Positions 12,623 through 31,769 of a DNA stretch of 64,000 nucleotides are shown piece after piece. The DNA is taken from NCBI RefSeq assembly GCF_041438805.1, contig NZ_CP109190.1, positions 9,486,001-9,550,000 of the forward strand, given 5' to 3'. Numbering within the stretch: position 1 is the first letter of the stretch; each line of letters starts with the position of its first letter. The position numbers were made by a program, and so were the translations under genes. This DNA is from Streptomyces sp. NBC_01707 (GTDB lineage Bacteria; Actinomycetota; Actinomycetes; Streptomycetales; Streptomycetaceae). Under the pieces are notes generated by a model. That model searched no databases, had not been told where the DNA came from, and worked only from the letters and a program-made list of their open reading frames with translations.

Positions 12623-13492
12623 TCAGTCCGCGGGCCGGGGTTCGAGGACGAAGGTGTGACGCAGCACGGTGTACGGCTCGTCTGTCAGCCCACGGCGGGG
12701 CCCGGCGTCAGCCTCGAACGTTTCAAATGACTCGACGAGCGAATCCTTGACCCCGAACACCGGATCCGCGTCCAGGTGCGGGTCGTCCGACGGGAACAGC
12801 ATGGTGGTCACACGCTGGAATCCCGGAGCCTCGATCAGCAGGTGCACGTGGGCGGGACGCATGAGCGACCTGTTGGTAGCGCTCATGAGTTCGCCGACCG
12901 GGCCGTCACCGGGTATCGGGTAGCTGGACGGGCGAATGGAGCGGAAACTGAAGTTTCCCGTCTCGTCGGTCCAAAACAGCGCGCGCATGGCCGGGTCGAC
13001 CCGGTCGGGTACGTCCACGTCGTAATGGCCCTCCGCGTCACTGTGCCAGACGTCCACCGCCGCGCCGGCCACCGGCGCTCCCTCACGGTTCACGACCCGT
13101 CCCTCGAAGAACAGCGAGGTGCCGGGCAGACCACCGGAGATGTCGGCGCCATCGAGGTGCTGCGGCCTGTCGCCCCTGAAGAAGGGGCCCAGGACGCTGT
13201 TCTGCGTGGCTTCGGCGGGGCGTTGATTGCTCAGGGCATCGACCAGAATGGTGACGCCCAGCACGTCGGACAGCAGGATGAATTCCTGGCGCGTCGGCGT
13301 GCACGTCTGCCCGGTGCGAGTCAGGAAGTCCACTCCCCGGGCCCACTCCTCCTCCGTCAGTTGCACCTCACGGACGAATGCATGGACGTGCCGCACCAAC
13401 GATTCCGCGATCTCGGCGACGCGGGAGTCCTTGGTGTCCCGCATGGTCGAGATCACAGCCTCGGTGATGGTGTCGATGGTCAGATCACGCAT
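12623..13492 (-). CDS. Hydroxyquinol 1,2-dioxygenase (intradiol) 1
   Basis: A 289-aa non-heme Fe(III) intradiol dioxygenase that opens hydroxyquinol (1,2,4-benzenetriol) to maleylacetate (as 3-hydroxymuconate). The N-terminal helical domain (SLVRHVHAFVREVQLTEEEW) and NSVLGPFFRGD are family signatures. The four iron ligands are visible: Tyr in AEGHYDVD, Tyr in SSYPIPGDGPVG, and both His in RPAHVHLLIEAPG. The ATG at 13492 has AGGAG 6 nt upstream; the longer open frame is spurious. It is directly downstream of maleylacetate reductase (71-bp gap), the enzyme for the next step. Confidence 0.93.
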   Translation of the reverse strand: MRDLTIDTITEAVISTMRDTKDSRVAEIAESLVRHVHAFVREVQLTEEEWARGVDFLTRTGQTCTPTRQEFILLSDVLGVTILVDALSNQRPAEATQNSVLGPFFRGDRPQHLDGADISGGLPGTSLFFEGRVVNREGAPVAGAAVDVWHSDAEGHYDVDVPDRVDPAMRALFWTDETGNFSFRSIRPSSYPIPGDGPVGELMSATNRSLMRPAHVHLLIEAPGFQRVTTMLFPSDDPHLDADPVFGVKDSLVESFETFEADAGPRRGLTDEPYTVLRHTFVLEPRPAD

Positions 13493-13563
13493 GGTGCGCT
13501 CCTGTGGTGGTTGCGTGGTCGATGATGGAGTGGGAATGGGGATGTTCGTTGCCGCGTGAACAT

Positions 13564-14619
13564 CTATTGCGTTTCCCCGGCCCAGGCGCGGGTCAGGAGG
13601 GCGCGGACAGCGGTCCGATCCACTGGTCGCGGATTCCAGTAGCCGTCCCTCACGATGAGTTCGGCTGCCTGATCGATCCCCGATTCCGGCATGCCGAGGT
13701 CCCGCAGTGCCCTGGGCGCGCCGAGCCGCCCTGCGAAGTCGAAGAGACCGCTCGCGGCGTCGGCCCCCGGCAGCGCCTGCGCGATGCGTGCCATCGCCTC
13801 GGGGGCCGCCGGCCCGTTGTAGGCGACCACGTGCGGCAGGACGACCGCGTGGGTTTCGGCGTGCGGAAGGCCGAACGTGCCGCCCAGCACGTGGCACACC
13901 TTGTGGTGCAGGGCCATGCCCACCGTGCCGAGACACGTGCCCGCCAGCCACGCACCGTACAACGCATCCGCCCGCGCCTCGCCGTCGTCCGGACGCCGCG
14001 CGATGACCGGAAGGGACCGGGTGAGGGAATCGAGCGCCTCACCGGCCATCAGGAAGGCGACCGGGTCCCGGTCCTGTGCGTAGAGGGCCTCCACGGCGTG
14101 CGCCATCGCGTTGATGCCGCTGACCACCGATATCGCCGCCGGAAACGTGAGCGTCAGGTCGACGTCGTACACCACCGTCTTGAGCAGCACTTCGGGCAGC
14201 CGCCTGGTCGTCTTCCTGCGGCCTTCGGTCTCTCCGAGAATCGGCGTCATCTCCGAGCCGGCGTAGGTGGTGGGCAGCGCCAGCTGCGGAAGACCGGTCC
14301 GCACGGCGATCGCCTTGCCGAGGCCGATGGTCGATCCACCGCCGATGGCGAGTACGCAGTCCGCTCCCACGGATCTGGCGTACGCGAGCGCCTTCTGCGT
14401 GACGTCGACAGGGGTGTGCGGGGCCGCTTCGGCGAACGTTCCCACGGCTGCCGCACCCAGCAGGTCGCGCATCTTTGCTGCCTGGTCCGCTTGACCAGGT
14501 GTGCACAGGAGGAGCACTCGACGGCTTCCGAGAGCCTCGGCCTCTTCGGGGATACGGCTGCGCGTACCGCTGCCGAAGACCACCTTGGTGATCTGTCCCC
14601 GGTGCACGAATGTCTTCAT
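13564..14619 (-). CDS. Maleylacetate reductase
   Basis: A 351-aa member of the iron-containing alcohol dehydrogenase superfamily, maleylacetate reductase branch, which reduces maleylacetate to 3-oxoadipate with NAD(P)H. Recognisable segments are the N-terminal VHRGQITKVVFGSGT, the nucleotide-binding AIGGGSTIGLGKAIA, TYAGSEMTPILG and KVCHVLGGTFGLPHAETHAVVLPHV. The ATG at 14619 follows GAGGAAA. It is the first gene of the minus-strand catabolic series and is divergent from the 3-oxoadipate CoA-transferase genes, which use its product. Confidence 0.93.
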   Translation of the reverse strand: MKTFVHRGQITKVVFGSGTRSRIPEEAEALGSRRVLLLCTPGQADQAAKMRDLLGAAAVGTFAEAAPHTPVDVTQKALAYARSVGADCVLAIGGGSTIGLGKAIAVRTGLPQLALPTTYAGSEMTPILGETEGRRKTTRRLPEVLLKTVVYDVDLTLTFPAAISVVSGINAMAHAVEALYAQDRDPVAFLMAGEALDSLTRSLPVIARRPDDGEARADALYGAWLAGTCLGTVGMALHHKVCHVLGGTFGLPHAETHAVVLPHVVAYNGPAAPEAMARIAQALPGADAASGLFDFAGRLGAPRALRDLGMPESGIDQAAELIVRDGYWNPRPVDRTAVRALLTRAWAGETQ

Positions 14620-25036: not shown

Positions 25037-25573
25037 TCAGGCCACTGTGCCGCCGTCCCTCTGCGCTGTGGTCCTCCGCCCCTCGCGCAGCACTCGAGCG
25101 CGGGAAGCGAGGGGAATGGCCGAGGCCAGCAGCCCGAGGGCAAGCGCGGTCGACCCCCAGGCATGGCCGGACAGCCGGTTCAGACCGAGAGCGGCGTCGA
25201 GCGACCAGGGGCCCGGTCCGGTGAATCCGAGCACCGTGGCTACGGCGCCGTACCAGAACGGAAGCTCGCAGCCACCTCGCTGTGCCCAGAAGCCGTTGCC
25301 CGCTGTCGCGACGGTGGCCACCGTCATCGTGCCGACGACGACCGCGCAGCCGCCGGGCGTCAGCAGCCCGGCGGCGATCAGAAGCGCGCCCGCGAGCTCC
25401 GCCAGGCCGGCTGCCAGCGCCATCCGCGGGCCGGGGCGGAACCCCCACTGCTCGAAGACGGCGCCGGTGCCGGAAAGACCCGCTCCTCCGAACCAGCCGA
25501 GCAGCTTCTGTGTCGCGTGGCCGAACAGCAGAGCGGCGAGCAACACCCGCAGCAGCAGAAGTCCCACGCTCAT
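25037..25573 (-). CDS. DoxX-family membrane protein
   Basis: A 178-aa integral membrane protein with about four helices, including SVGLLLLRVLLAALLFGHAT, the typical DoxX opening with GHATQKLLGWFGG. GFRPGPRMALAAGLAELAGALLIAAGLLTP follows. DoxX proteins are thought to help redox or sulfur-stress functions at the membrane. The ATG at 25573 has AAGGT upstream and begins at the first helix. It is downstream of the amidohydrolase on the same strand (127-bp gap), so co-transcription is possible. Confidence 0.85.
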   Translation of the reverse strand: MSVGLLLLRVLLAALLFGHATQKLLGWFGGAGLSGTGAVFEQWGFRPGPRMALAAGLAELAGALLIAAGLLTPGGCAVVVGTMTVATVATAGNGFWAQRGGCELPFWYGAVATVLGFTGPGPWSLDAALGLNRLSGHAWGSTALALGLLASAIPLASRARVLREGRRTTAQRDGGTVA

Positions 25574-25700: not shown

Positions 25701-27149
25701 TCACCCGCTGTGTGTCGCGGTGCTGCGGTAGTCGGTATAGGTGTAAGGGTTGTCGAGGATCTTCGACGCGGGGACGTCCGGATTCATGCCCTTGCGCCAC
25801 TCCTCCTCGCCCATGGTCGACCGCAGGTGTTCGACGGTCTGCTCGACCTCGCGCCGTACCGCGGCCAGGTCGACGCCGAGCAGGCGATGCTCGTGCTTGA
25901 CCACCCGTCCGTTGACCACCACGGTGTGCACGTCGCCGCGCTGTGCCTGGAACGCCACGTGGCCGTACGGGTTGAGCACCGGGAACGAGACCGGCGAGTG
26001 GTCATTCTTGAGCAGGACGAGGTCGGCCTTCTTGCCCGCCTCGATGCTGCCCAGGTCGTGCTCGCGGCCGAGTGCCTTGGCGCCACCGAGCGTGGCCCAT
26101 TCCACCACCTGATCGGCGCGCAGGGCGCAGTGCGTGACGGTCTCGCCCTTGGTGTGGGCCTCCAGATGCTCGCGCGCCCGGTCGGCACCCAGCGTGGTGC
26201 GCATGGCGGAGAACAGGTCCCCGCTCCACCAGACGTTGGTGTCCATCGAGAGTGAGACGGGGATGTCGTGGGACCGGAGCGCCCAGGTCGTCGGGTAGCC
26301 CTGCCCGGCGCTCTGCTCGCTCTCCGTGGACACCGAGATCGAACCACCTGTCGCCGCGATGCGGTGGTAGGAGTCGGCGGACAGCGTGGAGGCGTGCACG
26401 TAGACCGTCTCCGGTGTCATGAAACCGTGCTCGTGCATCAGCCGGATGCCGTCGTCGTTGGTGGCGCCCCAGACCCCGGCGTGCGTGGTGACGGCGACGC
26501 CCAGTTCGCGCGCCACCTCGAAGGCGGGCTTTTCGGGGAACGCCGGGTCGCCCGTGACGTCGAAGGCGATCTGGAAGCCGAGCATGTCGTCGCCGGTGAT
26601 GCGGCGCCGCACGAAATCGCGGAACTCCGGTGCCGCGGTCCACTCCGACGGAGCCTGTTGGATATTGCCGTAGGCGAGGACGAACCGTCCGGGCACAGAC
26701 TGCAGCGCGTCGACCGCGGCGTCCGCGTGATCGACGGTCTGGAGCCCGTGCGACCAGTCGACGACGGTGGTCACCCCGGCGTCGAGTGCCTCCACGGCGG
26801 CCAGGAGGTTCCCGGCGTGCACGTCCGCCGGCCGGAAAGCCCTGCCATGCTCGAGGTAGTACCAGACGAAGTACTGGGTGAGTGTCCAGTCGGCGCCGTA
26901 GCCGCGCATCGCCGTCTGCCACATGTGGCGGTGCGTGTCGATCATGCCAGGCATCACGATGCCCTCGGAGGCGTCGATCGCGACCGTCCCGTCCGGAACC
27001 GCGAGCTGCGGACCGACTGCGGCGATCCGGTCGTCGACCACGAGGACATCCGTGTCGGTGAGCACCCGACGCACACGGTCCATGGGCAGCACCGTGCCGT
27101 TGCGGAAGACGATGGACCGTCCCGGCGGGAATTCGGTGGATCGACTCAT
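25701..27149 (-). CDS. Amidohydrolase (cytosine deaminase / atrazine chlorohydrolase-like)
   Basis: A 482-aa metal-dependent hydrolase of the amidohydrolase superfamily, expected to deaminate or dechlorinate an N-heterocycle or related ring. The metal site is intact: HxH in MIDTHRHMW, His in VTTHAGVWG, a later His region VHASTLSADSYH and Asp in SLSMDTNVWW. The C-terminal KADLVLLKND closing strand is typical. The ATG at 27149 has AAGGAG 7 nt upstream. It is divergent from the IclR gene at 27679 across a 530-bp region rich in GTCCG/CGGAC repeats, so IclR control is likely. Confidence 0.85.
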   Translation of the reverse strand: MSRSTEFPPGRSIVFRNGTVLPMDRVRRVLTDTDVLVVDDRIAAVGPQLAVPDGTVAIDASEGIVMPGMIDTHRHMWQTAMRGYGADWTLTQYFVWYYLEHGRAFRPADVHAGNLLAAVEALDAGVTTVVDWSHGLQTVDHADAAVDALQSVPGRFVLAYGNIQQAPSEWTAAPEFRDFVRRRITGDDMLGFQIAFDVTGDPAFPEKPAFEVARELGVAVTTHAGVWGATNDDGIRLMHEHGFMTPETVYVHASTLSADSYHRIAATGGSISVSTESEQSAGQGYPTTWALRSHDIPVSLSMDTNVWWSGDLFSAMRTTLGADRAREHLEAHTKGETVTHCALRADQVVEWATLGGAKALGREHDLGSIEAGKKADLVLLKNDHSPVSFPVLNPYGHVAFQAQRGDVHTVVVNGRVVKHEHRLLGVDLAAVRREVEQTVEHLRSTMGEEEWRKGMNPDVPASKILDNPYTYTDYRSTATHSG

Positions 27150-27678
27150 CACTGATCTCCTTCGTGCTGTCGGTTCGGGGCGGCGAGAGGCCGGCGGAGC
27201 CGGATCACGGGGTGGAGCGTGATCCCTTGCTGTTCGCCGCGTCGGCCCGGATGAGGTGCCTGCTGCGGAGCCGGTAGGAATCGCCGTTCTGCGCCATGCC
27301 TAAGGGACGACGCCGTCAGCCGATCCGGCACTCGGGAACCGGCGTGTGCGGATTCCCGATGTGCTGGAGGGGCCGGGCGACGATTACGTTGCAGGAGTCC
27401 ATCCACATTTTCGGACCGACGTCCGTATGACGGTCAATCGCTGCCGAGTGATGATGAATTAGCCAAATCAGGATGTCAATACCCTGATCTCGATCCGGGC
27501 ATGGCGAGATCTGGTTCGAGATGTCCGCACCACGGTCGGGGTAGGCCGCCGATCGGCGGGCTCCTGCGTGCCAGGACGCAATCTGCTGCGTAAAGTGCCA
27601 CCCTCAGGCTGTCCGCAGAACGGACGATCGTTGCCACTTCCTGGTCATCACGACCACAGCACACCAAGAGGAGACCCC
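27150..27678. promoter_or_regulatory. Divergent control region between amidohydrolase and IclR genes
   Basis: No gene is visible in these 529 bp. Besides the operator at 27611-27625 it holds a degenerate relative TGTCCG-N5-CGGTCG at 27522-27538. A repeat with reversed arms, CGGAC-N4-GTCCG, lies at 27412-27425. The clustering of the same half-site suggests a shared regulator. Confidence 0.45.
27611..27625. promoter_or_regulatory. Candidate IclR operator GTCCG-N5-CGGAC
   Basis: This inverted repeat lies 54 bp before the IclR start. It matches the core of the perfect site at 28543-28559 with the same 5-nt spacer, which fits autoregulation by the IclR protein. Confidence 0.55.
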
Positions 27679-28500
27679 ATGCCCCGCGAAGGAACAGGGC
27701 CCGATTTCATCGAGGCGCTGGCCCGAGGACTGGAGGTGATCACCGCGTTCCAGCCCCGGCAGCCGGTGATGTCGCTGACCGACATGTCGAACGCGACGGG
27801 GCTGGCCAGGCCGACCGCCCGCCGGATCCTGCTCACCCTGGCCGAGCTGGGATACGTACGGCAGCAGGCCGGTGGGTTTGCGCTCACCCCCCGGGTGCTC
27901 GACCTCGGCGTCGCCTACGTCCGCTCGATGGGGCTGTGGGACGTGGCGCGGCCGCACCTGGAGTGGCTGGTCGAGCGTACGAATGAGTCCTGTTCGATCG
28001 CGCAGCTCGACGGCTCGGACATCGTTTACGTTTCCCGGGTGTCCGTGCCGAAGATCGTCGCGCTCGCTGTGCAGATCGGGACCAGATTCCCGGCGCTCCA
28101 GACGTCTTTGGGCAAGGTCCTGCTGGCTGCGCTGCCGTCGGACGAGGTGGCCCGGATCCTGGCCGAGCCGAGCCGCTCGGGCCTGGCCCCGGTGTGGCAG
28201 CCGGACCGTGCGGAATGGGAGGCGGGGCTGCGGGAGGTCCGCGCGCGGGGCTGGGCGATGACCGACGAGCAGCTCGCGAGGGGTATCCGATCGGTGGCCG
28301 CGCCACTGCGCGACGGATCCGGGCGCGTCATCGCGAGTGTCAATGTGAACGCGCATGCTGCCGAGACCTCGGTGGAGGTCCTGCTCAACGACTATCTGCC
28401 GCTTCTCCTGCAGGCCGCGGGCGAAATCAGCGTGGACTTCGCACGGCTCGAGTCCGCGCCGCACGTGATCCGGCCGACGGGCGCGGTCCGGAAACCTTGA
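27679..28500 (+). CDS. IclR-family transcriptional regulator
   Basis: A 273-aa regulator with an N-terminal winged HTH (VMSLTDMSNATGLARPTARR, LAELGYVRQ) and a C-terminal IclR ligand-binding domain (SCSIAQLDGSDIVYVSRV, FPALQTSLGKVLLAALP, RGIRSVAAPLRDGSGRVIASVN). The family often controls aromatic catabolism (PcaR, PobR, CatR types). The ATG at 27679 follows AGAGGAG. Candidate operators lie upstream of this gene and between it and the CoA-transferase gene that starts 75 bp after its stop. Confidence 0.9.
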   Translation: MPREGTGPDFIEALARGLEVITAFQPRQPVMSLTDMSNATGLARPTARRILLTLAELGYVRQQAGGFALTPRVLDLGVAYVRSMGLWDVARPHLEWLVERTNESCSIAQLDGSDIVYVSRVSVPKIVALAVQIGTRFPALQTSLGKVLLAALPSDEVARILAEPSRSGLAPVWQPDRAEWEAGLREVRARGWAMTDEQLARGIRSVAAPLRDGSGRVIASVNVNAHAAETSVEVLLNDYLPLLLQAAGEISVDFARLESAPHVIRPTGAVRKP

Positions 28501-28534
28501 CGTCCACGCTGTCCGCGACTCAGAATCACATCAG

Positions 28535-28559
28535 CGGACACTTGTCCGTTGATCGGACA
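28535..28559. promoter_or_regulatory. Overlapping palindromes, candidate IclR operator
   Basis: Two perfect inverted repeats overlap here: CGGACA-CT-TGTCCG (28535-28548) and TGTCCG-N5-CGGACA (28543-28559). They lie 17 nt before the CoA-transferase start, where a bound regulator would block or recruit polymerase. Confidence 0.6.
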
Positions 28560-28575
28560 GAAAGAGGCAAGGTCG

Positions 28576-29766
28576 ATGTCAGAGAGCGTCACTTCCGCTC
28601 GCTCGGGTGTCGCGGGGCCACTGTCCGGAGTGCTGGTGGCGGATTTCTCGCGGATCCTTGCCGGGCCGTACGCCACCATGCTGCTGGCGGACCTGGGGGC
28701 CGACGTCGTCAAGGTCGAGGGGCGCCACGGTGACGACACCCGGACCTGGATGCCTCCTGTACGGGGTGAGGTCTCGACCTACTACCTCGGGATCAACCGT
28801 GGGAAGCGCTCGATCGCACTGGACCTCCGTGACGAGGCCGACGCCGCCATCGCGCGTGAACTGGCGCGCCGCGCGGACGTGGTGATCGAGAACTTCAAAC
28901 CCGGCGGGCTGGCGAAGTACGGGCTGGACTTCGAGGCGGTCCACCGCGACAACCCTGGCGTGATCTACACGTCGATCACGGGGTTCGGCTCAGGTTCGGG
29001 TCGCCACGTGCCCGGTTACGACCTCATGGTGCAGGCCATCTCGGGCTTGATGAGCCTGACGGGCGATCCGGACGGGCCGCCCTTCCGGGCCGGGATCTCC
29101 GTGTTCGACGTGATGGCCGGCAACCACGCCACGATCGGCATCCTGGCAGCGCTGCGCCACCGCGACGCGACCGGCGACGGCCAGCTCGTCGAGGTGAACC
29201 TGCTGTCCTCGGCGCTCACCGGACTGGTAAACCACAGCTCGGCCTTCGTCGCAGGCGGAACCGTGCCGTACCGGATGGGCAACGCCCACCCCAGCGTGTT
29301 CCCGTACGAACCACTGCCCACCGCGGACAACGACCTCATCGTGACCGCCGCCAACGACGGGCAGTTCCGCAAGCTGTGCGAGGTACTCGGCATCCCCGAG
29401 GTCGCCGACGACTCGCGCTTCGCCCGCAATGCGGACCGCACGGCCAACCGCGAGCAGCTCCGGCCGCTCCTGGTCGAACAGCTGGCCGCACGCGGTGCCA
29501 ACGAATGGTTCGAGCTGCTGGTCGACGCCGGCGTGCCGAGCGGGCCGATCAACACCATCGACGGTGGGTTCGCCATGGCCGAGCGGTTCGAGCTGGAACC
29601 GATCGTCACCGTCGGAGAGGGGGAGCGCGCGGTACCCACGACACGTCACCCGATCCGCTTCTCCGCCACGCCGGCCACCTATCGGCTGCCGCCGCCGGAG
29701 CTCGACGAACACGGCGACGCGCTCCGCAAGTGGTTGTCCGAGCCCGAGGAGGCAAACCGTGACTGA
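28576..29766 (+). CDS. Class III CoA-transferase (CaiB/BaiF family)
   Basis: A 396-aa family III CoA-transferase. The N-terminal LVADFSRILAGPYATMLLADLGADVVKVEG is the standard opening, followed by NRGKRSIALDL, GLSYxxQA-like GYDLMVQAISGLMSLTG and the presumed nucleophile Asp in GISVFDVMAG. It should move CoA between carboxylic acids; the substrate is unknown. The ATG at 28576 is preferred over the TTG at 28549 because AGAGG/AAGG lie just upstream. Its stop overlaps the GTG of the citryl-CoA-lyase-like gene, so the two are coupled. Confidence 0.87.
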   Translation: MSESVTSARSGVAGPLSGVLVADFSRILAGPYATMLLADLGADVVKVEGRHGDDTRTWMPPVRGEVSTYYLGINRGKRSIALDLRDEADAAIARELARRADVVIENFKPGGLAKYGLDFEAVHRDNPGVIYTSITGFGSGSGRHVPGYDLMVQAISGLMSLTGDPDGPPFRAGISVFDVMAGNHATIGILAALRHRDATGDGQLVEVNLLSSALTGLVNHSSAFVAGGTVPYRMGNAHPSVFPYEPLPTADNDLIVTAANDGQFRKLCEVLGIPEVADDSRFARNADRTANREQLRPLLVEQLAARGANEWFELLVDAGVPSGPINTIDGGFAMAERFELEPIVTVGEGERAVPTTRHPIRFSATPATYRLPPPELDEHGDALRKWLSEPEEANRD

Positions 29767-30598
29767 GCCGCACACCCGCCCCGTGTATCGCACTGCCCTG
29801 GGCGCGTCCGACCTGAAGACCATCACCCTGCTCGGTCATGACCTGGCCGAGGACATCATGGGTTCGGTGGGCTTCGGTGAACTGGCGTTCTGGCTGGCCA
29901 CGCAGCGGCGGCCGAGCCCCGGAGAGACACGGGTCTTCGAGGCGGTGCTCGCCGCGCTGGCCGACCACGGGTTCACCCCCACTGCCATCGTCACCCGGCT
30001 GACGTACCTGTCCGCGCCGGACTCCATCCAGGGCGCCCTCGCCGCCGGCCTGCTCGGCGGCGGCTCGCGATTCCTCGGCGTCACCGAGGACACCGGCCGA
30101 TTCCTGCACGACGTGCTGGAGTCGCTCCGCGGCGCTGTGCCGTCCGACGAAGCGGGCTGGGACGAGGTGGCATTGCGCACGGTGCAGGAGCAGCGCGCAG
30201 CCGCGAAATTCGTGCCCGGGCTGGGACACCACGTCCACAAGGCGGGCGATCCCCGGACGCCGAGACTGATGCAGATCGCGACGGAGGAGGGTCTGTTCGG
30301 TCCGCACCTGTCGCTGTTCGCCGCCATCGGCCGGGTCCATCCGGACGTGCTGGGCAAGACGCTGCCGCTCAACGGGGCGGGCGTCTGCGGCGCCGCGCTC
30401 GCCGATCTCGGCCTGCCACTGCCGCTGCTTCGCGGGTTCGCGCTGCTGGCCCGCGCCGCCGGACTGATCGGGCAGCTCGCCGAGGAACTTCGCCACCCGG
30501 TCGCGCGTGACGTCTTCCTCTCGGTCGACCTCAACAACACCTCCGTTGCGCCGGACCCCTTCACCCTCGATCCGTTGGGAGAAGGCCGCACCGGCTGA
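29759..30598 (+). CDS. Citryl-CoA lyase-like protein (citrate synthase family)
   Basis: A 279-aa short member of the citrate synthase superfamily of the type annotated as citryl-CoA lyase. It shows the first active-site His region (ALADHGFTPTAIVTRLTYLSAP) and the second (VPGLGHHVHKAGDPRTP, equivalent to GxGHRVYKxxDPR). At the third catalytic position, where synthases have NVDFYSG, it reads LNGAGVCGAAL without the Asp. Cleavage of a CoA thioester made by the preceding CoA-transferase is a reasonable inference. The GTG at 29759 overlaps the upstream stop by eight bases and has GAGGAGG upstream. Confidence 0.8.
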   Translation: MTEPHTRPVYRTALGASDLKTITLLGHDLAEDIMGSVGFGELAFWLATQRRPSPGETRVFEAVLAALADHGFTPTAIVTRLTYLSAPDSIQGALAAGLLGGGSRFLGVTEDTGRFLHDVLESLRGAVPSDEAGWDEVALRTVQEQRAAAKFVPGLGHHVHKAGDPRTPRLMQIATEEGLFGPHLSLFAAIGRVHPDVLGKTLPLNGAGVCGAALADLGLPLPLLRGFALLARAAGLIGQLAEELRHPVARDVFLSVDLNNTSVAPDPFTLDPLGEGRTG

Positions 30599-30911
30599 CG
30601 CCGCCTCCATCCGGCAGCAGGCCGAGAGCGTGCCCCCGCACCGCGCACGACACGGCATCGACGTCCGGCCGTCGGAGGGTCAGGCCGAGGAAGAGGCGGT
30701 GCTCGGCCGTGAGGCCGACCCCGGCCCGCCTCAGCCGCGCGGGCCCGTTGCCCGGCGCTCGCTGATCAGCGTTGCGACCACGGGTCGGACCCGATCGACG
30801 ACGAGGGCGCGCGCATGGAGCTCGGCCGCCGGGTACGCCCACCAGCCGCCCGGCGGCAACCGGCAGCACAACGGTCGTCACCACATCCGCAAGGCATACC
30901 GAGGAGCAACC
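30599..30911. other. Intergenic region with no recognised gene
   Basis: 313 bp between the lyase-like and dioxygenase genes. Open frames exist but show no family motif, and no hairpin stands out, so read-through from the CoA-transferase operon into the dioxygenase is possible. Confidence 0.4.
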
Positions 30912-31769
30912 ATGTTTGTCGACGAGGACAACATCACCGACCTTGCCGTTCAGCGCTGGGCCACCGCCCACTCGCCGCGTCTGGCGGAGTTGATGACCGC
31001 GTTGGTCCGGCACCTGCACGCGTTTGCCCGGGACGTGCAGCTGACCGAAGACGAATGGATGGCCGCGATCGAATGGCTGACCGCGGCCGGCCGGATAAGC
31101 AGTGAGAAGCGTCAGGAACTCATTCTTACCTCCGACGTGCTCGGACTGAGCATGCTCGTGGTGCAGCTGAACAACAGGTACTCGCCGCAGGCGACCCCCG
31201 CCACCGTGCTGGGGCCGTTCCACATCGACGGGTCGCCCGCAGCGTCGTACGGCTTCGACATGTCGGACGGCATTCCGGGAACACCGCTGTTCTTCACCGG
31301 CAAGGTCACCGACATTGAGGGCGAACCCGTTGCTCACGCCGTACTCGACGCATGGCAGGCCGATGCCGACGGCACCTACGAGTCCCAGATGCCCGACATC
31401 GACGAAGCCCGCCTGCGGGCGAAGTACCGGACCCGGGAGGACGGCACCTACTGCATCCGCACCATCGCGCCACGCGGGTACGCCATCCCGATGGACGGCC
31501 CAGTGGGTGACCTGATGCGCAGGACCGACATCAGCTACTTCCGTCCCGCTCACGTCCATTTCCTCATCGAGGAGCCGGGGTACCAGCGGCTGATCACCCA
31601 CCTGTTCCAGGAGGGCAGCGAGTATCTCGACAGCGACGTGGTCTTCGGTACGAAGGACGCGCTGGTCGTGCGGTTCACCGAGCGACCGGCAGGAGTCGCA
31701 CCCGACGGAAGCACTCTCGAAGAGCCCTACCTACACGCCGAGTACGACTTCGTCCTGCAACCCGACTGA
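30912..31769 (+). CDS. Hydroxyquinol 1,2-dioxygenase-like intradiol dioxygenase 2
   Basis: A 285-aa intradiol dioxygenase clearly related to the one at 12623 but divergent. The helical N-domain (LVRHLHAFARDVQLTEDEW) and ATVLGPFHIDGSP are present. All four iron ligands are kept: Tyr in DADGTYESQ, Tyr in PRGYAIPMDGPVG and His-x-His in RPAHVHFLIEEPGY. The ATG at 30912 follows GAGGAG. Unlike copy 1 it has no maleylacetate reductase nearby and instead follows CoA-transferase and lyase-like genes, so its substrate may differ from hydroxyquinol. A strong terminator follows. Confidence 0.9.
   Translation: MFVDEDNITDLAVQRWATAHSPRLAELMTALVRHLHAFARDVQLTEDEWMAAIEWLTAAGRISSEKRQELILTSDVLGLSMLVVQLNNRYSPQATPATVLGPFHIDGSPAASYGFDMSDGIPGTPLFFTGKVTDIEGEPVAHAVLDAWQADADGTYESQMPDIDEARLRAKYRTREDGTYCIRTIAPRGYAIPMDGPVGDLMRRTDISYFRPAHVHFLIEEPGYQRLITHLFQEGSEYLDSDVVFGTKDALVVRFTERPAGVAPDGSTLEEPYLHAEYDFVLQPD

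Follow-up and report, generated by a model that had tools for sequence, protein, structure and literature searches.

Organisation of the locus

The DNA considered here, referred to throughout as the window, is a stretch of 64,000 nucleotides from Streptomyces sp. NBC_01707 (contig NZ_CP109190.1, positions 9,486,001 to 9,550,000), the genome of which is 9.9 Mb in 3 contigs. Between positions 25701 and 31769 of the window lie five open reading frames (ORFs), encoding an amidohydrolase (AMH), an IclR-family regulator, a class III coenzyme A (CoA)-transferase (CaiB), a citryl-CoA-lyase-like protein (the lyase) and an intradiol dioxygenase of the hydroxyquinol 1,2-dioxygenase family (HQDO), here called the module (Table 1). 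An earlier note, made from the sequence alone, had placed this set of five at these positions with the AMH gene divergent from the IclR gene, and both statements hold, AMH being read leftward and the other four rightward. It had also described the CoA-transferase and lyase-like genes as translationally coupled. The ORFs of CaiB and the lyase overlap by 8 bases, thus their coupling is plausible; the dioxygenase starts 313 bases past the lyase stop and is not coupled.

Table 1. Genes and predicted operator sites of the module, with the adjoining DoxX gene (window positions)
Feature	Position	Strand	Basis
Amidohydrolase (AMH), PRK08204-like, AtzA/TrzN fold	25701..27152	-	domain models, alignment, fold match
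IclR-family regulator close to PcaR/PcaU/PobR subfamily	27679..28500	+	family models
Class III (CaiB/BaiF) CoA-transferase (CaiB)	28576..29766	+	CoA_transf_3
Citrate-synthase-family, citryl-CoA-lyase-like protein	29759..30598	+	PRK06224.1-5; Ala207 at catalytic Asp position (LPLNGAG)
Hydroxyquinol 1,2-dioxygenase-family intradiol dioxygenase (HQDO)	30912..31769	+	domain models; module-specific clade
Three-box operator, predicted	27412..27435	+	exact CGGAC-N4-GTCCG-N5-CGGNC, AMH/IclR gap
Second three-box operator, predicted	28535..28558	+	exact match, IclR/CaiB gap
DoxX-family membrane protein	25037..25573	-	family model; adjoins AMH

Conservation of the gene set

A scan of a genome collection with the lyase gave at least 493 relatives among 594 stretches, of which the best 80, all actinobacterial by title, were kept. 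The window proteins were searched against these loci by tblastn with flanks of up to 10 kb, many contigs being shorter, and one locus of 3.2 kb (L041; L and G numbers are our handles for loci and genomes) was left out of the count, leaving 79. Gene calls at some loci came from a codon-usage caller that missed genes, such as the major facilitator superfamily (MFS) gene of L004, therefore presence counts are taken from tblastn. The lyase is found in 79/79 loci, CaiB in 78/79 and AMH in 76/79. An HQDO is found in 31/79 and a LigB-type dioxygenase in 45/79, with L062 having both; the four loci with neither include three in which the contig ends just past the lyase.

Because the 80 loci had been picked on lyase similarity, an even sample of 149 genomes drawn from across the phylum was also searched. 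AMH occurs at E<=1e-90 in 5/149, the genome of the window and four others, and in all four of the others the lyase lies no more than 3.1 kb from it, with a LigB-type gene also present in three and an HQDO-family gene in one (G075). The lyase family alone is wider, occurring in 10/149 genomes at E<=1e-40, some of which are without the rest of the set. A chance neighbourhood is ruled out by the synteny of the 79 loci together with the even sample, and the earlier suggestion of looking for the same gene set in other actinomycetes is borne out in that the genes travel together.

A divergent form of the module is carried on alphaproteobacterial plasmids of Aminobacter, Sinorhizobium and Martelella, with the lyase, CaiB, a LigB-type enzyme and its small partner, and with AMH in the Sinorhizobium and Martelella forms. 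Aminobacter MSH1 was considered as a lead to a known pathway and dropped, as its module is on pUSP2, a different plasmid from pBAM1 and pBAM2, the dichlorobenzamide plasmids, as far as excerpts of the literature indicate. Within the genome of the window there is a second copy of the module at C1:253559-262000 (L004), with HQDO at 72%, CaiB at 81%, lyase at 81% and its own IclR at 65%, where only a short remnant of AMH is found. A further AMH copy (70%) at L118:5897-7296 (C1:285854-287259) is in two overlapping frames, as if frameshifted.

A ring-cleaving dioxygenase without a reductase

The module HQDO matches Dioxygenase_N and Dioxygenase_C, and its best solved relatives are PnpC (3n9t) and hydroxyquinol 1,2-dioxygenase (1tmx). 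Tyr156, Tyr190, His214 and His216, which we take to be the iron ligands, are invariant across 48 aligned HQDOs, in agreement with the earlier remark that the dioxygenase keeps all of them. At positions 72, 75, 99, 101-103, 192, 193, 211 and 244, presumably the pocket or substrate contacts of 1tmx, the module enzymes are the same as those linked to maleylacetate reductase (MAR), save for one Met at 72. The 34 module rows group in a single clade of the HQDO tree. The G075 (L110) intradiol enzyme falls outside this clade on the tree, but a single clade that includes it is not rejected (p-AU 0.448, approximately unbiased test), and its independent recruitment was therefore considered and not adopted.

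That this dioxygenase lacks a MAR partner, which the earlier note had observed for the window, is a rule for the module HQDO group. MAR was not found by tblastn in the fetched stretches of any of the 79 module loci. Across 30 genomes of the 31 HQDO-type loci (L083 was left out) MAR adjoins 0/30 module HQDOs compared with 13/15 other HQDOs (Fisher 1.4e-9, a p-value that is too small as the genomes are related and the rows not independent). Moreover, 18 of the 30 genomes, for which completeness is not stated, have no MAR at E<=1e-40, and G075, a 98% complete genome of the even sample carrying the HQDO form, has no MAR match at E<=1e-50.

Outside the module the HQDO family usually keeps its reductase. 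In six HQDO loci hand-picked from plasmid matches an annotated MAR is near five (Bosea, Variovorax, Burkholderia multivorans, Paraburkholderia and Skermanella) and a MAR fragment is in the sixth, Cupriavidus basilensis. Within the same phylum MAR is beside HQDO in L136, L137, L140 and the window itself, where the sole MAR found adjoins the other HQDO. This canonical pair at 12623-14619 is 11 kb from the module, another pair is at C1:8620454-8622379, and a search at E<=1e-50 gives two MAR genes in the genome.

Exchange of two unrelated dioxygenases

The alternative dioxygenase of the sister loci is a LigB-family protein with a small LigA-like partner, the Pfam match of the partner being weak (E 0.028, below the cut-off). 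The best solved relative of the LigB-type enzyme is gallate dioxygenase (69 bits), with protocatechuate 4,5-dioxygenase at 68. Whilst the two-part make-up is that of the gallate/protocatechuate 4,5-dioxygenase LigAB, the enzyme is not in the window, and the usual Glu of LigB, which we take to be a ligand of the metal site, aligns with Gly in the module-type enzyme; the His beside it is conserved in five module-type rows.

The clearest case of exchange is that of two Rhodococcus plasmids which carry one operon, consisting of IclR, an FAD hydroxylase, an alpha/beta hydrolase (related to 2,6-dihydroxypseudooxynicotine hydrolase, 109 bits), AMH, CaiB, lyase, dioxygenase and LeuD. The dioxygenase is an HQDO in R. 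opacus G13 and LigB with a LigA-like partner in Rhodococcus NBC_00297, and two strains of Blastococcus saxobsidens likewise differ in dioxygenase type. In a quick CaiB-plus-lyase tree of 88 rows (50 LigB, 33 HQDO, one both and four unlabelled; L022 and L041, without CaiB beside the lyase, were left out) dioxygenase type changes at least 16 times, nine of these changes being forced by well-supported branches, against a mean of 26 when shuffled. The figure of 16 omits the unlabelled rows and the both-type row, and becomes 17 if both is treated as a third state. It is therefore probable that the intradiol HQDO and the LigB-type enzyme deliver the same product, and the repeated swap within one operon between ring-cleaving folds that are unrelated offers a direct test of which substrate makes them equivalent.

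LigB-type dioxygenases with the small partner are also found on rhizobial plasmids (L120:2602-5653 and L121:7864-28828) near P450 and alpha/beta hydrolase genes, with FAH and a VirA-like kinase also in L121; CaiB and lyase were not found in these two stretches.

The regulator and its predicted operator

The window IclR matches IclR_C and the PcaR/PcaU/PobR model TIGR02431, and it is like the PcaU and PobR regulators in this and in having a three-box operator; it differs in that its score of 266 bits is below the curated cut-off of 284.75 and in that it would control this operon. Excerpts of PMC8222616 give three-box sites for PcaU, PobR and HmgR, and for PobR the motif TTGTCCGATSATCGGACAR; the window site in the IclR/CaiB gap has a PobR-like TGTCCG-N5-CGGACA pair. 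Using the pattern CGGACANNTGTCCGNNNNNCGGACA with up to 4 mismatches on either strand, a predicted site is upstream of CaiB in 74/79 sets, window included and with both dioxygenase types, compared with a mean of 2.7/79 and a maximum of 5 when stretches were taken at random from the same loci in 30 draws, the pattern itself having been drawn from the loci on which it was counted.

A search of the whole genome with the reduced pattern of Table 1 is a more independent test. There are five exact copies, with about 1.4 expected by chance per genome (calculated by hand from base composition). Two are the window sites, two overlap at C1:253559-253592 in the IclR/HQDO gap of the second module copy, and the fifth is at C1:261814-261837 near that copy, within the longest ORF of an HpaX-like MFS gene at its 5' end, although the site is probably upstream of the true start since the family match begins only at about residue 115. 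With one mismatch there are 67 sites in the genome against 37 for a reversed control pattern, so near matches are largely noise, and as the window has 12 sites at up to two mismatches with 5.6 expected only its two exact sites are used. Both Rhodococcus operons have the operator as well, between IclR and the FAD hydroxylase, and so do L110-L113; with up to one mismatch allowed it is absent from the six alphaproteobacterial loci and the six MAR-type or other HQDO loci checked. Going by these sequence matches, one predicted operator appears to link the gene set and suggests its co-regulation.

The amidohydrolase

AMH matches Amidohydro_1 and, just below the cut-off (378 bits against 391), PRK08204, and the atrazine chlorohydrolase AtzA is both its best solved sequence relative and its best fold match. 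It has the fold of the AtzA/TrzN triazine hydrolases and COG0402 deaminases and their HxH, H, H, D pattern, in the form of the invariant H74, H76, H224, H253 and D304, which by analogy we take to be metal ligands. Unlike these enzymes it is without HxxE, presumably the defining catalytic motif of the COG0402 deaminase branch, which is absent from AMH, its aligned module relatives and both AMH subfamilies of the module, and it has the nearly invariant Glu279 at the CPSSN position. The AlphaFold model is moderate, with a predicted local distance difference test (pLDDT) score of 70.1, and because residues 277-286 are below 50 Glu279 is not placeable in it.

AMHs of the same broad group adjoin HQDO and MAR in Bosea vestrisii, Paraburkholderia D15 and Skermanella. 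Alignment of the Bosea and Paraburkholderia enzymes shows that they likewise have no HxxE and keep the Glu. The five closest plasmid relatives of the Paraburkholderia AMH (itself included, at least 58%) have an HQDO near four, the exception being Variovorax VAI-C; more distant AMHs in L125, L133 and L134 are not near an HQDO. Since related AMHs are found beside HQDO and MAR elsewhere, it is suggested that CaiB and the lyase stand in place of MAR and that AMH acts upstream.

CaiB and the lyase

CaiB matches CoA_transf_3 over residues 16-379 of 396 (E 1e-114). The lyase matches the citryl-CoA lyase model PRK06224.1-5 at 267 bits, above the cut-off of 193, and is akin to citryl-CoA lyase and the C-terminal module of ATP-citrate lyase (6hxp, 6hxn) in sequence family and in keeping both His motifs, DHG and GHxxxKxxDPR, the His of which we take to be catalytic. 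It differs from them in being partnered by CaiB and a ring-cleaving dioxygenase, and in having Ala207, found in at least 99% of 82 aligned lyases, where sequence alignment places an Asp in 6hxp and in a homologue from the same genome (L005), presumably the catalytic Asp of the citrate synthase fold. Relatives of the lyase carry Ser or Thr at this position. The AlphaFold model of the lyase is unusable (pLDDT 39.6).

The homologue just mentioned, which has the Asp, is part of a separate three-gene group with CaiB and IclR (L005:4927-7806, C1 about 1071000), a stretch where HQDO and LigB were not found. In L100:9983-14025 and L101-L105 there are distant citryl-CoA lyases that have Thr at the Asp position and adjoin CaiB and LeuC/LeuD (L100) or acyl-CoA dehydrogenases, and these may belong to other pathways in which the same altered lyase is used.

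A possible pathway and its alternatives

The reading that fits best is that the module is an IclR-controlled catabolic operon for a ring of the hydroxyquinol type in which CaiB and the lyase replace MAR, to which we give a probability of about one half. The earlier note had proposed ring cleavage followed by CoA activation and carbon-carbon cleavage, and this is the order of events that the best-fitting reading has. The analysis itself gives the gene content, the synteny, the swapping of ring-opening enzymes, the operator and the lack of an adjacent MAR; from these we infer the substrate, the thioester, the cleavage chemistry with its products, the reaction of AMH and the common product of both dioxygenases.

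The substrate would be a trihydroxylated ring with the 1,2,4-triol pattern of hydroxyquinol, with or without further substituents. The ring compound may be prepared by AMH together with enzymes whose genes are at other places, and in the Rhodococcus operons the MhpA-type FAD hydroxylase and the hydrolase could make the polyhydroxylated ring. The intradiol dioxygenase would open the ring between two hydroxylated carbons to give maleylacetate or a substituted maleylacetate, a step that the LigB/LigA-type enzyme would carry out in relatives. The usual MAR, 3-oxoadipate CoA-transferase and thiolase would not be used. Instead, CaiB would load the ring-opened keto-diacid with CoA, and the lyase would split the resulting thioester in a hydrolytic retro-Claisen reaction, giving acetyl-CoA and a maleate-type dicarboxylate. 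The dicarboxylate could then be hydrated by aconitase-family (LeuCD-type) enzymes, a role LeuD could have in the Rhodococcus operons. The more specific version, in which the lyase without its Asp hydrolyses maleylacetyl-CoA to maleate and acetyl-CoA and two unrelated dioxygenase folds give the same product, is more tentative, and we think it possible with the odds against it.

A number of observations weigh against this reading. No member of the citrate synthase family is known to us as a retro-Claisen hydrolase, and extradiol cleavage of hydroxyquinol by a LigB-type enzyme does not normally give maleylacetate, for which a hydroquinone-type cleavage is needed. Near the pocket, the 34 module HQDOs and 13 MAR-linked or other HQDOs part at three positions, with 191 never Pro in the module and Pro in 13/13 of the others, 194 Met in 33/34 module enzymes, and 243 Val in 34/34 against 1/13, therefore the substrate may not be plain hydroxyquinol. 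MAR is present elsewhere in 12 of the 30 genomes and in that of the window, and some HQDOs outside the module are also without an adjacent MAR, namely 2/15 together with L117, L138 (where 9 kb of the 16.8-kb contig was fetched) and L139 (an 8.8-kb contig), the genomes of these three having MAR elsewhere. Related AMHs of Serratia, Burkholderia anthina, Pseudooceanicola and Variovorax have no adjacent HQDO, and AMH is missing from the Aminobacter form and from the R. rhodochrous version of the module. Lastly, the window has no counterpart of the LeuD gene of the two Rhodococcus operons, nor of the LeuC and LeuD genes found beside a distant Cupriavidus lyase.

The main rival is a vicinal triol ring of the gallate, 3-O-methylgallate or pyrogallol type, which is less probable though still to be taken seriously. 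In such a ring the bond cut by intradiol and by extradiol enzymes would be one and the same, as would the product (oxalomesaconate or 2-hydroxymuconate), and this would explain why HQDO and LigB/LigA are exchangeable; AMH would hydrate or hydrolyse that product, and the thioester cleaved by CaiB and the lyase would be that of a tertiary alcohol, resembling citryl-CoA. The exchange itself thus favours it, as does gallate dioxygenase being the best solved relative of the LigB-type enzyme, a carboxylated ring would suit the HpaX-like transporter gene with its operator, and there are lignin-type neighbours (a VanA-like oxygenase in L024 and, close to a related R. johnstonii dioxygenase, a VirA-like kinase and a P450), although each of these is from a single locus. 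Against it, most HQDO-family enzymes found outside the module have MAR as a partner, which suggests hydroxyquinol, and related AMHs also pair with HQDO and MAR. Slightly less probable again is that the lyase is an ordinary retro-aldol enzyme of the citryl-CoA or citramalyl-CoA type acting on a 3-hydroxy-3-carboxyacyl-CoA, formed after hydration by AMH or LeuCD-type enzymes. Its family membership, the company of CaiB, LeuC and LeuD that a distant lyase has in Cupriavidus, and LeuD in the Rhodococcus operons are in keeping with this, but the replacement of the catalytic Asp by Ala in module lyases and by Ser or Thr in relatives is not, and no hydratase is recognised in the window set unless it is AMH.

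It is improbable that the dioxygenase simply supplies maleylacetate to the MAR at 13564, with CaiB and the lyase serving an unrelated acid. The two MAR genes of the genome would allow it, yet none of the 30 module HQDOs has MAR beside it, 18 of those genomes have no match, and the shared operator and synteny also speak against it. Marginally the least probable is the deamination or dechlorination of a substituted ring by AMH ahead of its cleavage, a possibility raised in the earlier note. The likeness to AtzA in sequence and fold points that way, but the idea is not supported because AMH and its aligned module relatives are without HxxE, as are both AMH subfamilies, and no other sign of a chlorinated or aminated ring was noticed in the loci.

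Set beside the known resorcinol/hydroxyquinol pathway (HQDO plus MAR), the proposed hydroxyquinol-type operon shares the dioxygenase family, most of the pocket residues and all iron ligands, and AMHs related to its own adjoin that pathway in some Proteobacteria; it differs in having CaiB and the lyase in place of an adjacent MAR, in its own HQDO clade and in the swap with LigB-type enzymes. No description of the gene set was found in the literature searched, including excerpts of PMC8222616, PMC8460812 and PMC13118837, most subscription papers being outside that search. If the proposal is true, this would be a widespread and apparently undescribed entry of aromatic rings into central metabolism in soil actinomycetes and some rhizobia, in which no NADH is spent on maleylacetate, and it would give a function to proteins annotated as citryl-CoA lyase that are without the residue needed for that role.

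Other genes are found near the module. The DoxX gene is behind AMH in the window and in 7 other loci, and its product is a possible accessory part. Proteins with a MetE-like cobalamin-independent methionine synthase domain are encoded near the module in 12 loci and in one case in Aminobacter, with L040, L055, L062 and L106 as examples.

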